A DNA stretch of 64,000 nucleotides from the NCBI RefSeq assembly GCF_001678665.1, contig NZ_LZRP01000001.1:248001-312000 (forward strand). The letters run 5' to 3'. Below the pieces are notes generated by a model that did no database searches, was not told the DNA's origin, and saw only the letters and a program-made list of their open reading frames with translations. Shown here in pieces: positions 53,981 to 63,869 of the stretch (position 1 is the first letter of the stretch; each line of letters starts with the position of its first letter). The stretch comes from Erythrobacter sp. QSSC1-22B (GTDB taxonomy: Bacteria; Pseudomonadota; Alphaproteobacteria; Sphingomonadales; Sphingomonadaceae). The translations under genes were made by a program, and so were the position numbers.

Positions 53981-58994
<5,014 letters not shown>

Positions 58995-59288
58995 TACGCG
59001 CGCTTCTAGCCAATCGTCAGCCGCGCGTCACTGGCGCAAACGCGCGGCATTCACAGGCCAAGCGATTCCGGTAGAGGTGCCGCAAAGTCGGTGCGCTTGT
59101 CTTGATGACCAGACGGTCCACCGCTGGACCGCGAGCGGATTCCTCCATACGTCCGTGCGCGAATGCGGCGAGCCGTGCGCGACTTACGGCATTGCCTGCT
59201 CGTGCCATCCCGTGGTTCACCTGCGTGCAATCCGTCATGCGCGAAAGCCGCGCCAATCCACCGATCCGTATCCAAAGGAAAACGCCTC
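58995..59288. other. 294-bp intergenic region between recN and outer membrane protein gene
   Basis: This is the largest gap in the window. It contains divergent start sides for recN (-) and the porin-like gene (+). Two short open frames on the - strand (59017-59256 and 59051-59314) have no recognisable similarity and weak starts, so I did not call them. No tRNA-like fold or strong repeat was seen. Confidence 0.5.
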
Positions 59289-59891
59289 ATGAAGACGCTC
59301 ATCACCGCCGCCATTCTTGCTGCCAGTCTGGTCGCTACCCCTGCCTTCGCGCAGGCGGCGGCGCCGGGCGGGCTCTATGTCGGCGCACTCGCCGGCTATG
59401 AGGGTATCGATGTCGAGGCCTCGGATGGCTCGGCCAGCGCCAGCGCCGACGCCGCGGTCTACGGCGTCACCGCGGGTTACGATCTCAGCCTCGGCAGCGC
59501 CTTCGTCGGGGTCGAGGGCGAATATTCGACCAGCGGCGGTTCGACCGAATTCCCCGACAGCTTCGGCGGCGCGCGCGACGGGCTCGAGGCCGGCGGGCAG
59601 TATTACATCGGCGCACGCGCCGGGTTTGCGCTCACCCCGGGAATCGCCGCCTATGGCAAGCTGGGCTACACCTCGCTCGACACCAGTGCCTTCACCAGCG
59701 CGGGCTCGCTAAACGAGCTCGAGGGCAATGCCGATGGCGTGCGCTTCGGCGGCGGTGTGCAGGTGCAACTGCCCGGCCCGCTCGAGGCGCGGCTCGAATA
59801 TCGCCGCTCCAATTACAAGAACGTCAACGATTCGGTGTTTGGCGATGCCAGCACGGATCAGGTCGTTGCCGGGGTCGGCCTGCGGTTCTAG
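59289..59891 (+). CDS. Outer membrane beta-barrel protein (porin family, OmpA/Omp25-like)
   Basis: A 200-residue secreted protein. The signal peptide MKTLITAAILAASLVATPAFA is followed by an eight-stranded barrel pattern of alternating residues (GGLYVGALAGYEGIDV, VYGVTAGYDLSLG) and ends in the terminal aromatic GVGLRF, as required for BamA insertion. The start ATG 59289 has AAGGAAAACGCCTC upstream. It is the small Omp25/Omp31-type barrel common in this class. Confidence 0.85.
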   Translation: MKTLITAAILAASLVATPAFAQAAAPGGLYVGALAGYEGIDVEASDGSASASADAAVYGVTAGYDLSLGSAFVGVEGEYSTSGGSTEFPDSFGGARDGLEAGGQYYIGARAGFALTPGIAAYGKLGYTSLDTSAFTSAGSLNELEGNADGVRFGGGVQVQLPGPLEARLEYRRSNYKNVNDSVFGDASTDQVVAGVGLRF

Positions 59892-59969: not shown

Positions 59970-62786
59970 CTAGAACAGCTTGCGCAGTTCAATGCCGAGA
60001 TAGCGGCCGGTCGGGTCGATCCGCAGCGGGTCGTAGGCGAGCGGCGTCACGCCATTGGCGTCCACCACATTGCGGCGGGCGTCGAAGATGTTGTCGACGT
60101 TGAGCGAGACCCGCAAGCCGTCAAACACGCCCGATTCGGCACCGGTCACCTCGCCCAGATCGGCGAACAGCCGGAGGTCGAAAGTGGCGAGATCGCCGAA
60201 GAACAGATCGGTGCTGCCGGGCAGTTCGCCGCCGCGCAGTTCGCTGCCGCCGACGTAATTGCCCGAGACGCGCATCCCGTAGCCCTGCCAGAACAGCCCG
60301 CCCTCGAGCCGCGCGCTGTAGACCGGCACGCCGCCGCCACCGAGGACGAAGCCGTCGCGCTGGTCGAGCACCGGGCCGTTGGTGCCGACGATCACTTCGT
60401 TCTCGAGCGCGAAATTATGCGTCAGGCTGAGGAAGTAGCGCGGACGGGTATCCGGGTTCTCACCGCCACCCATGCCGGGGATGCCGCCGCCGCCGCCGCG
60501 TCGTCTGCCCGGCTGGGCGGCCGCGCCGCCCTCACCTGCCGCCGCGCCATCGGCGCTGCACAGCCGCTCGCGCAATTGCGCCAGTCGATCGGGATCGATC
60601 TCGCCCGCCTCGTTGCGCAGCCGTGCGAGCATTTCCTCGGGCAGTCCTTCGAGATTGGGCGGATCGGCGCAGACCGCGGCACGCATCGCCTCCATCCTCT
60701 CCCCGCCGCGCTCGACTTCGGCGCCGCAGAACCGCTCGCGCAGCTGGGCGATGCGTTCGGGGGGAATGGTGCCGTCGGGGCCGCGCAGCCGCTCCAGCAA
60801 CGCTTCGGGCAGACCGGTGAGGTCGGGAGTCTCGCCAACGGGTGTAGCGCAGAAGCGAGTTCGCATCGCTTCCATGCCCTCACGGCCCATCGTGATAGTC
60901 GCGCCGCCCGGCCCGCCTGCTGCGCCCGGACCGCGCCCACCGCGGTTGGCGGCGCCAGCGGGCGGAGAATCGGGCACTTCAGGCTCGGCGCCGATCCGGC
61001 CGCTGGTGTTGATCCCGAAGGACAGCACCTTGCTGCGGGTCTCGATCAGCGTGATCGGACGGCGGTCGAGCGCGATCAGCTGGCCTGCGCCATCGCGCGT
61101 CACCCGGTCGGGGAAAGCCGCCTCGAACGCCGGGCTCAGACCCGGCGCGCTGGAGGTGACATCGTTCGAGCGGTTGATCGCGTAGTCGAGCTGAAGCCGC
61201 GTATTTTCTATGAAAGGAAGGTCCCAATTGGCCGAGAACTTCCAGTCGGCCTGGGTTTCGGCCACCAGCGCGGGATTGCCGCCGGTGACGACCGTCGCCA
61301 GCACGCTCTCGCCGGTCGTGAAGTCGAACACCGGCACGTTGAAATCGACCACTTGCGGATCGCCCAGCGCGTTGAGGCCCGGCGCAACTTCGCGCCAGAT
61401 CCGTGTGGCCGAGAGGTTGAGCCGTTCGAAGGGCTGCCAGTTGAGACCCAGGCTCCAGTCGGTCAGCGTGCCGAAATCCGACAATTCGTTGATGCCGGCC
61501 TGGCCCGTCAGCGAGATCGAACCGATGGCGTCGGCGAAACCTTCGCGGCGGCTGGTAAGCGGCACCACCACATTGATCCCGGCGGAAAGATCGCCCCGCG
61601 TCAGCCGGCTGTCCTGCGCGCTGCGGGTGTCGGTGCTGGAGATACGGTTCCAGTTATAGCCGACATCGAAGGTGGTCGCGACATCGCCCGCGGGGAGATA
61701 GACCGGCGAACCGGTTACCGTCGCGAGCGTGCTCGTGCCCCACAGCGTGGAACGCGCGGTGTCGACCCCGCCACCCGCGCGGCGGTCGATCCGGGTGCGG
61801 CTGTTGGCGCGGCTTGCATCGAAGGTAGCTGTGAGGTTCCAGCCTTCGCCCAGAGGCCGGTTGTAGCTGCCCGAGCTGGCGAGCGAATTGCTGGCGATAT
61901 TGCGTTCGAGCGGATCGGTCAGCAGCACGGTGTCGAGCCCCGAGAGGCTGCGGCGCTCGTTGTAGGCGCCGGTGACGTTCAAGCTGATCGAGGAGCCGCT
62001 ATCGATGAACGCCTTGGCGTAATTGGCGGATGCCTCGATCCCGGCGCTGTCGGCAACCAGGCTGCGGAATTCGCGCGGATCGGGACCTCCGGCGACGCCG
62101 CCAGGTGAGCCGTCGATCAAGGGAAGGTCCCGCTCCGCCTCGGTCAGCAGGCTGGTGTCCTCGAACTCGAGGTTGAAGTTGATCCGCGCGCCGTCGCTGA
62201 TGGTCAGCAGCGAGAATTCCTGCTCGTTCTGCGAATAGCCGCCGATACCCGGCTGGCCGTATTCGAGTTCGATCTCGCGGCTGGAAAAATTGTTCTTGAG
62301 GATGAAATTGACCACCCGCCTGTCGGGCGAATAGCCGAACCGCTGAGCCACCTCCTCGGGGAAGACCTCGACCTTCTCGATCGCCTCGGGAGGGTAGGAG
62401 CGGAATTCACGGAAGGAGCCAATCCGCACCCCGTTCACGAGGAAGATCGGACGACCGCCGCCGCCGCGTCCCCGCGCGCTTCCGGTAGCGGGTTCGATCG
62501 CCTGTAGAAGATCGTCGATCGAGCCGGCGCCGAGCGCGGCGATATCCTCGGCGTCGAGTTCGAGCACCGGCGGCTGTTCGACATCGAGCGCGCCACGCTG
62601 GCGGGCACCGGTGACGACGATCTCGTTGCCGACCATCGGCGCATCGGCCTGCGGATCATTGTTCTGGACTTCGGGAGCGGGCGCCTGGGGCATGTCCTGA
62701 ACGGCCATATCCTGAGCCGAAACAGGCGCGGACAGAGGCAGGGCGCTGGCGAGCGCCAGAACAGAAACCGTCGATGCGAGACGCAA
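59970..62786 (-). CDS. TonB-dependent receptor with duplicated Cys-bounded insert
   Basis: A 938-residue outer-membrane receptor. A signal peptide (SALPLSAPVSAQD) and a plug domain (EIVVTGARQRG; FLVNGVRIGSFREF; EEVAQRFGYSP) precede a barrel ending in terminal Phe (GIELRKLF). Residues about 625-770 form an insert not found in a normal barrel: two related segments of about 40-55 residues. The first is bounded by Cys646 and Cys687, the second by Cys706 and Cys743, with Gly/Pro-rich linkers on both sides. The start is TTG 62786 with AAGG upstream. The ligand is unknown. Confidence 0.88.
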   Translation of the reverse strand: MRLASTVSVLALASALPLSAPVSAQDMAVQDMPQAPAPEVQNNDPQADAPMVGNEIVVTGARQRGALDVEQPPVLELDAEDIAALGAGSIDDLLQAIEPATGSARGRGGGGRPIFLVNGVRIGSFREFRSYPPEAIEKVEVFPEEVAQRFGYSPDRRVVNFILKNNFSSREIELEYGQPGIGGYSQNEQEFSLLTISDGARINFNLEFEDTSLLTEAERDLPLIDGSPGGVAGGPDPREFRSLVADSAGIEASANYAKAFIDSGSSISLNVTGAYNERRSLSGLDTVLLTDPLERNIASNSLASSGSYNRPLGEGWNLTATFDASRANSRTRIDRRAGGGVDTARSTLWGTSTLATVTGSPVYLPAGDVATTFDVGYNWNRISSTDTRSAQDSRLTRGDLSAGINVVVPLTSRREGFADAIGSISLTGQAGINELSDFGTLTDWSLGLNWQPFERLNLSATRIWREVAPGLNALGDPQVVDFNVPVFDFTTGESVLATVVTGGNPALVAETQADWKFSANWDLPFIENTRLQLDYAINRSNDVTSSAPGLSPAFEAAFPDRVTRDGAGQLIALDRRPITLIETRSKVLSFGINTSGRIGAEPEVPDSPPAGAANRGGRGPGAAGGPGGATITMGREGMEAMRTRFCATPVGETPDLTGLPEALLERLRGPDGTIPPERIAQLRERFCGAEVERGGERMEAMRAAVCADPPNLEGLPEEMLARLRNEAGEIDPDRLAQLRERLCSADGAAAGEGGAAAQPGRRRGGGGGIPGMGGGENPDTRPRYFLSLTHNFALENEVIVGTNGPVLDQRDGFVLGGGGVPVYSARLEGGLFWQGYGMRVSGNYVGGSELRGGELPGSTDLFFGDLATFDLRLFADLGEVTGAESGVFDGLRVSLNVDNIFDARRNVVDANGVTPLAYDPLRIDPTGRYLGIELRKLF

Positions 62787-63013: not shown

Positions 63014-63259
63014 ATGGCCAAAGAAGAACTCCTCGAAATGCGCGGCAGGGTGGTCGAATTGCTGCCCAATGCGATGTTCCGGGTAGAGCTTGAAAACGGC
63101 CATGAGGTGCTCGGCCACACCGCCGGCAAGATGCGCAAGAACCGCATCCGCGTGCTGGTGGGCGACGAGGTGCTGTGCGAACTGACCCCCTACGACCTGA
63201 CGAAAGCGCGGATCACCTACCGCTTCATGCCGGGTCGCGGCGGCCCCGGGCCGCAATAA
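63014..63259 (+). CDS. infA: Translation initiation factor IF-1
   Basis: An 81-residue S1-like protein that helps initiation on the 30S subunit. The OB-fold ([35 protein letters not shown], given here in part) is complete and [12 protein letters not shown] ends it. The C-terminus is about nine residues longer than the usual 72-residue form. The start ATG 63014 has AAGGAACACC upstream. It is followed by maf 13 bp later, then the ribonuclease gene. Confidence 0.96.
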
Positions 63260-63272
63260 CGCGCCGCGCCGC

Positions 63273-63869
63273 ATGAGCGCGTCCGCCTCTCCGCTCCGAC
63301 TCACCCTCGCCTCCGCCAGCCCGCGCCGCCGCGAATTGCTGGCGCGGCTGGGCGTGGCGCCAGATGCGGTGATCGCTGCCGACATCGATGAAACCCCGCA
63401 AAAGGCCGAGCTGCCGCGCGACTATGCGCAGCGCATGGCGCGCGAGAAGGCGCTGGCGGTTGTCGCCGCCACTGTCATCGAGGGCCATGTGCTGGCGGGC
63501 GACACCGTGGTCGCCGCCGGACGCCGGATTCTGCCCAAGGCCGAGGACGAAGCGACGGCGCGCCGCTGCCTCGAACTGCTTTCGGGCCGCCGCCACCGCG
63601 TGCTCTCCGCGATTGCCCTGCGTGCGCCCGACGGGAGTTTGCGCGAACGGCTGAGCGAGACCGCGGTCAAGTTCAAGCGTCTCTCCGCCGAAGAGATCAC
63701 AGCCTATCTCGCGAGCGGCGAATGGGAGGGCAAGGCTGGCGGCTACGCGATCCAGGGTAGCGCCGAGGGGCTGGTCTCCTGGCTCCAGGGCAGCCATTCC
63801 GGAGTGGTCGGCCTGCCGCTGTTCGAGACCCGCGCGCTGCTCAAGGCGGCGGGCTTTGCGCTTGGCTGA
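63273..63869 (+). CDS. Maf family nucleotide pyrophosphatase
   Basis: A 198-residue Maf-type NTP pyrophosphatase that hydrolyses noncanonical or m5-type nucleotides. The N-terminal [16 protein letters not shown] and [26 protein letters not shown] and the C-terminal [28 protein letters not shown] are standard. The start is ATG 63273, close behind infA. Whether it is the YceF- or YhdE-type is not clear from sequence. Confidence 0.92.

Follow-up and report, generated by a model that had tools for sequence, protein, structure and literature searches.

A duplicated, cysteine-paired helical module at a predicted periplasmic turn of a TonB-dependent receptor

The receptor gene and its surroundings

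The features described here lie near one end of the window (the whole stretch of DNA that was analysed, 64,000 nucleotides long) and are collected in Table 1. The central one is a reverse-strand frame, open from a TTG codon, whose product has an N-terminus that by eye resembles a signal peptide. A Pfam scan of the product at E<=1 returned the Plug family alone, at 22.5 bits against a gathering score of 23.9 and with E 1.7e-4, just under the cut-off, and an NCBIfam scan gave no match at E<=1. When the full-length protein was modelled with AlphaFold (42 sequences), a plug and a barrel were obtained (mean pLDDT 82.5, pTM 0.72), and a Foldseek search of the PDB with this model yielded 230 matches at E<=0.001, with PirA, Cir, FepA, PfeA and BtuB foremost; judged by title, the best 50 of the 230 consist entirely of TonB-dependent or SusC-type receptors. 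Model and Foldseek matches thus show the plug-in-barrel fold of this class, and judged by them the product is a TonB-dependent receptor, a known kind of protein. The segment EIVVTG, ahead of the plug, is what we take to be a TonB-box-like motif. A genome search with the receptor found one match in the window's own genome.

The neighbourhood was compared across 80 loci from named genomes, which by their titles are mostly Erythrobacteraceae with some Novosphingobium. The divergent infA gene adjoins the receptor in 80/80 of these loci, and the gene beyond it, which we take to be of maf type, is present in all except L062, where the stretch stops at a contig edge. Genes downstream of the receptor vary among loci; they presumably include an alpha/beta hydrolase, a flavoprotein and a permease. 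The neighbour-gene analysis that a preliminary description of this DNA had proposed thus brought out infA and maf as constant companions, and the immediate neighbours lend no support to signalling through an anti-sigma factor.

Two further frames in the window deserve mention. A small outer-membrane beta-barrel gene (59283-59891, forward strand; Pfam OMP_b-brl, E 1.6e-20) converges on the receptor gene and has no match in the examined flanks of the 80 named loci. A 907-residue open frame (54694-57417, forward strand) runs antisense to a frame at 55213-57333 that we take to be ligA-like; the 907-residue frame is probably an artefact of high GC content.

Table 1. Features of the receptor locus (positions in the window).
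Feature	Residues	Position	Strand	Basis
TonB-dependent receptor gene	938 aa	59970..62786	-	TTG start as listed, stop included
Barrel strands 17-22 (predicted), C-terminal Phe	783-938	59973..60440	-	model
Gly-rich linker 2	747-782	60441..60548	-	747-777 predicted disordered, pLDDT <50
Unit 2, Cys706 and Cys743	689-746	60549..60722	-	sequence, model, unit alignment
Unit 1, Cys646 and Cys687	634-688	60723..60887	-	sequence, model, unit alignment
Gly-rich linker 1	598-633	60888..60995	-	607-633 predicted disordered, pLDDT <50
Barrel strands 1-16 (predicted)	167-597	60996..62288	-	DSSP of model, manual count
Plug region	about 62-166	62289..62603	-	Plug match 77-142 and model
TonB-box-like segment EIVVTG (presumed)	55-60	62607..62624	-	sequence; conserved in alignment of relatives
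infA, divergent neighbour		63014..63259	+	Pfam eIF-1a, E 4.4e-27
Presumed maf-type gene after infA		63273..63869	+	79/80 named loci

A repeated helical module interrupts the barrel

The receptor carries an insert of two related units between Gly-rich linkers of about 36 residues each, and the four cysteines of these units (646, 687, 706 and 743) are the sole cysteines of the protein. Global alignment of unit 1 with unit 2 (BLOSUM62) scored 145, while 2000 shuffles of unit 2 gave a mean of 14.6 (sd 5.8) and a maximum of 46. The preliminary description had noted a duplicated, cysteine-bounded module in residues of about 625-770: its cysteine positions are exact, the unit similarity lies far above the shuffles, and the Gly-rich linkers are indeed present, with boundaries narrowed to about 598-633 and 747-782. 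The ordered module is narrower, residues 634-746. The full-length model shows six helices within residues 635-743, three to each unit (635-647, 661-667 and 676-687 in unit 1; 689-706, 717-723 and 732-743 in unit 2), with every cysteine at or beside the C-terminal end of a helix, and pLDDT block means of 65 at 631-640 and 80-93 at 641-740. Modelled alone, the module reached a pLDDT of 77.6 and a pTM of 0.44, moderate values only, which we count against the preferred explanation given below. The full-length model nonetheless agrees with the earlier view that the segment stands outside the standard plug and barrel, as a helical domain and not as ordinary loops, and the repeat is not absent from relatives, 78/102 receptors having four cysteines in the insert. 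The insert is most likely a real, folded accessory domain of the receptor.

To place the insert we counted strands by hand on the DSSP assignment of the model, which gives 16 strands over residues 167-597 and 6 over residues 783-937, so that the insert would separate strand 16 from strand 17 in a barrel of 22 strands, at turn T8. This count assigns the short strands 479-488 and 493-501 to an extracellular hairpin, and it includes 562-564, 570-574, 806-808 and 907-909 in the loops. The C-terminus of the TonB-dependent receptor fold is periplasmic and the number of strands that follow is even (six), so the insert should be periplasmic as well; the label T8 depends also on the count of 16 preceding strands. 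The other even-to-odd turns of the model span 2 to 14 residues, compared with about 185 at T8, and the longer loops other than T8 all run from an odd to an even strand. A periplasmic turn had already been suggested from strand counting on the sequence, and the full-length model, with 16 strands before and six after, agrees; the proposal that the insert hangs from a predicted periplasmic turn is thus supported.

Cysteines in the insert come in pairs

A family-wide search returned receptor matches in 253/298 genomes at E<=1e-30, the weaker of which may be paralogues. In a first count, 102 of 110 receptors covered the insert and eight were dropped as incomplete or masked (one of these, L096, has a single cysteine next to a masked stretch). 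The insert holds four cysteines in 78 of the 102, two in 16 and none in 8; outside the insert there is no cysteine in 81, one in 16 and two in 5. The stretch between paired cysteines is either 37-47 or 59-63 residues long. We then enlarged the set by 40 further loci, selected among the hits of the family-wide search, and removed partial rows and rows more than 97% identical, which left 124 of 150, and called a unit short when its cysteines lie at most 48 residues apart and long when they lie further apart, a cut chosen in this analysis. Two short units were found in 54 receptors, two long units in 22, one long unit in 15, one short unit in 5 and no unit in 28; summed up, short units (one or two) occur in 59 receptors, long ones (one or two) in 37 and neither in 28. 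The number of insert cysteines is 0, 2 or 4 in all 124, with no odd count, and 20 receptors combine one unit with exactly two insert cysteines. In the 28 module-free receptors (for example L012, L014, L015, L161 and L163-L171) T8 is still an extended loop, of 26-106 residues and on average 41% Gly. Among the 40 further loci, 29 have infA within the examined stretch; the other 11 are all module-free and less than 39% identical.

Disulfide closure of each unit is likely because the cysteine counts are even, single-unit receptors with two cysteines occur, and DsbA-like and DsbB genes are present: the window's genome has four Thioredoxin_4 (DsbA-like) matches and one DsbB match above the cut-off. 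The 20 single-unit receptors argue for pairing within a unit. On the other side, 21/102 receptors have one or two cysteines outside the insert, where other pairings would be possible, and we count this against the preferred explanation. A top-down study of Novosphingobium aromaticivorans reports disulfide formation in periplasmic proteins, with even cysteine numbers in 53 of 55 proteins, 33 of them having zero (PMC3608174). Its Table 1 also lists Saro_3075, a TonB-dependent receptor, as a proteolytic fragment with the signal peptide removed, in the periplasmic extract (PMC3608174). Together with the Dsb genes, the N. aromaticivorans data make oxidised cysteine pairs plausible for a periplasmic domain.

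Among the searched genomes the module is confined to one family

A profile of the short unit matched 76/249 genomes of the window's family at E<=0.001, and the hit fell inside the receptor frame in 30/30 of the loci checked among these. The long-unit profile matched 82/249 at E<=0.01; six of the 82 gave weak hits only (E 0.001-0.009), in other frames, and were counted as chance. Class-wide, the short-unit profile matched 17/337 genomes at E<=0.01, 4 within the family and 13 outside it (E 1.9e-4 to 0.008). A first local search recovered 10 of the 13 outside loci, and a second, which reads through stops, covered all 13: in 12 the best stretch lacks a cysteine pair 30-65 residues apart, and in the last (L151) the pair lies in a stop-broken frame at 13.7 bits, which we took as chance. 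All matches of the long-unit profile class-wide (4/337) and of the short-unit profile phylum-wide (7/398) were in the family. No convincing copy was therefore found outside the family in 337 genomes class-wide (both profiles) or 398 phylum-wide (short unit), though a weak copy could be missed because each genome contributes no more than 16-26 scored candidates. A search for the module in other proteins, as had been called for, thus led back to the receptors of a single family.

Known domains gave little. Pfam had no match to the window module at E<=10, and for 21 long units its matches were scattered, the best being WH_MCM3_C (E 3.1e-4, 4/21) and the next families reaching 0.0067 and 0.0099; we treated all of these, WH_MCM3_C included, as chance. 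Sequence profiles of the PDB held no convincing relative of the short tandem (best E 2) or of the long unit (best E 0.14). With the module model, Foldseek returned 40 matches at E<=10 and none at E<=0.001, and VIA-align reached a best Z of 2.3 among 152 chains. These missing matches are no evidence of a new fold. Among the matches listed by a search of the open-access literature none describes such an insert, which does not imply absence elsewhere.

The module is old, often absent and under purifying selection

Compared across species in 52 proteins with two short and 17 with two long units, equivalent units have mean likenesses of 0.51-0.56, while units 1 and 2 within one protein average 0.46 (two short) and 0.43 (two long). 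Since equivalent units are more alike across species than the two units of one protein, the duplication is old. A tree of the 124 receptors, made with the insert columns removed, requires at least 11 changes between presence and absence of the module and at least 25 among the five states. By the former the module is dispensable in many lineages, which we count against the preferred explanation. Rows set as outgroup have no module and a Gly-rich loop in its place. That the clade's ancestor gained the module once and that repeated losses followed is our own reading; the change count cannot separate gain from loss.

For selection we used 210 pairs from 21 relatives chosen in the window's clade, two of which (L004 and L040) are near duplicates. 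The median pN/pS was 0.23 for the module, 0.22 for the plug, 0.38 for the barrel and 0.50 for the linkers, and the five closest pairs, two of which share a near-identical member, gave dN/dS of 0.02-0.05 for the module. By these sequence ratios, selection on the module is purifying and resembles that on the plug. Some divergent pairs, in which the module is the less conserved part, count against the preferred explanation: L031/L002, with an identity of 0.66 in the module and 0.82 in the barrel, and L001/L031, with 0.47 and 0.62 and a module dN/dS of 0.70.

As a separate observation, three Qipengyuania receptors (L056, L075, L082) and one from the window's genus (L185) share about 43-45% identity with the window's receptor and group with Parerythrobacter, although their infA is 99-100% and their maf 80-82% identical. 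This suggests that the receptor allele was replaced at a fixed locus.

A possible docking arm, and the alternatives

We propose that one or two three-helix units, with cysteines ending the first and third helix, would hang into the periplasm from T8 on flexible Gly-rich tethers. Most likely a disulfide is made within each unit after export, by the DsbA/DsbB system, and the module would most likely serve as a docking arm that keeps a periplasmic partner beside the barrel mouth, candidates being the TonB part of the energy system and the cell wall. The module's place, its tethers and its conservation point towards such a docking role, and we give about an even chance to the reading that a disulfide-braced periplasmic accessory domain on tethers docks a partner, for which the TonB side and the cell wall are candidates. 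What the sequences and the model show is the repeat, the even cysteine counts, a predicted fold and placement, the conservation of the module, purifying selection on it and its restriction to one family among the searched genomes; the disulfides, the docking role and the partner are what we infer. TonB is the first guess because of the T8 position, and the cell wall the second. The legend of a figure of the FhuA-TonB complex labels the periplasmic turns T8 and T9 (PMC11658791). Because T8 is labelled in this contact figure, the TonB side is proposed as partner; nearness of T8 to TonB would hold by analogy with FhuA, with a numbering that comes from our manual strand count. Relatives with two, one or no unit suggest an optional docking part, and since orthologues that lack the module persist, the barrel probably functions in its absence.

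A stronger form of this proposal, which we find doubtful, makes the module a disulfide-braced helical control arm of a new class, which would act from T8 either by capturing or gating TonB or by locking the receptor onto the cell wall; its history would be a single gain in the ancestor of Erythrobacteraceae and Novosphingobium with later duplication, lengthening and repeated loss, the receptor core staying beside infA throughout.

A cell-wall tether is unlikely; here peptidoglycan binding, by the module or by its linkers, would anchor or position the receptor, and TonB would not be involved in the contact. The predicted periplasmic place and long flexible tethers would suit such a tether, as would the T8 loop of the 28 module-free receptors, with a median net charge of +4. 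However, Pfam found no peptidoglycan-binding family in the window module or the 21 long units, most modules have an acidic net charge (median -4.5 in the 54 receptors with two short units), and where a module is present its linkers carry almost no net charge (medians 0 to +2; both window linkers -1); the near-neutral linkers of the window receptor do not favour the cell wall.

Less probable still is that the units receive a ligand leaving the barrel and pass it on. A module at the periplasmic side is well placed for this and the two ranges of inter-cysteine length (37-47 or 59-63) could reflect changed ligands, but no Pfam match to the window module or the 21 long units suggests a ligand, and module-free receptors persist. 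A nearly neutral spacer, in which a helical duplication is tolerated in a freely varying loop, seems to us quite improbable: in its favour the 124 receptors require no fewer than 25 changes among the five states, and against it stand the absence of odd cysteine counts in all 124, purifying selection like that on the plug and the confident fold in the model. Finally, a signalling domain that an anti-sigma factor would read, working like the N-terminal one of FecA or FpvA, is very improbable, since despite the parallel of an optional tethered periplasmic domain in FecA and FoxA (PMC11658791) Pfam finds the Plug alone at E<=1 and no signalling domain, the predicted domain lies within the barrel and not at the N-terminus, the adjacent genes are infA (80/80) and maf (79/80) with no sigma or anti-sigma gene next door, and none of the varying downstream genes examined looks sigma- or anti-sigma-like by eye.

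Comparison with known systems

Two small helical motifs were compared with the module. EF-hand pairs of the calmodulin type likewise show helix-loop-helix with a DGxI-type loop, and among the weak matches of the long-unit profile is a calcium-dependent protein kinase (E 0.14). Acidic residues are expected at positions 1 and 12 of an EF-hand loop; both are missing from the consensus L-x-G-E-D-G-x-I-D-P-E-R, which fits the pattern at positions 5, 6 and 8 and no others. Calmodulins appear in the Foldseek rows at E 2.1 or worse only, and the two VIA-align rows shown are not EF-hands. SHOCT domains are short hairpins of helix, Gly-containing turn and helix that resemble the module; one of the 21 long units matched SHOCT (E 0.057), which we took as chance, and the window module did not at E<=10.

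In its plug-in-barrel fold the receptor is like the 22-strand receptors PirA, FepA, PfeA, Cir and BtuB. If the docking proposal is true, a folded, conserved, cysteine-paired domain set into a barrel turn, on the side where TonB is expected to dock, would offer a further means of regulating or tethering such transporters, and the series of presence and absence at one orthologous locus makes its role testable by deletion. The nearest parallel is with FecA, FpvA and FoxA, in which an optional periplasmic accessory domain is likewise carried on a flexible tether, and periplasmic accessory domains of TonB-dependent receptors are described, in the relevant part of this source, at the N-terminus (PMC11658791). 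A FecA-type signalling domain was not found ahead of the TonB box of the window receptor (Pfam E<=1; residues 1-61 have pLDDT <50), and the module, in contrast to the N-terminal signalling domains of FecA, FpvA and FoxA, has neither a matching Pfam model nor an adjacent sigma or anti-sigma gene. It differs from their domains in being placed at the predicted turn T8, in the barrel sequence, in being predicted all-helical and in having cysteine pairs; what is new here is an unnamed cysteine-paired accessory domain at an unusual site, seen in one family only among the genomes covered.
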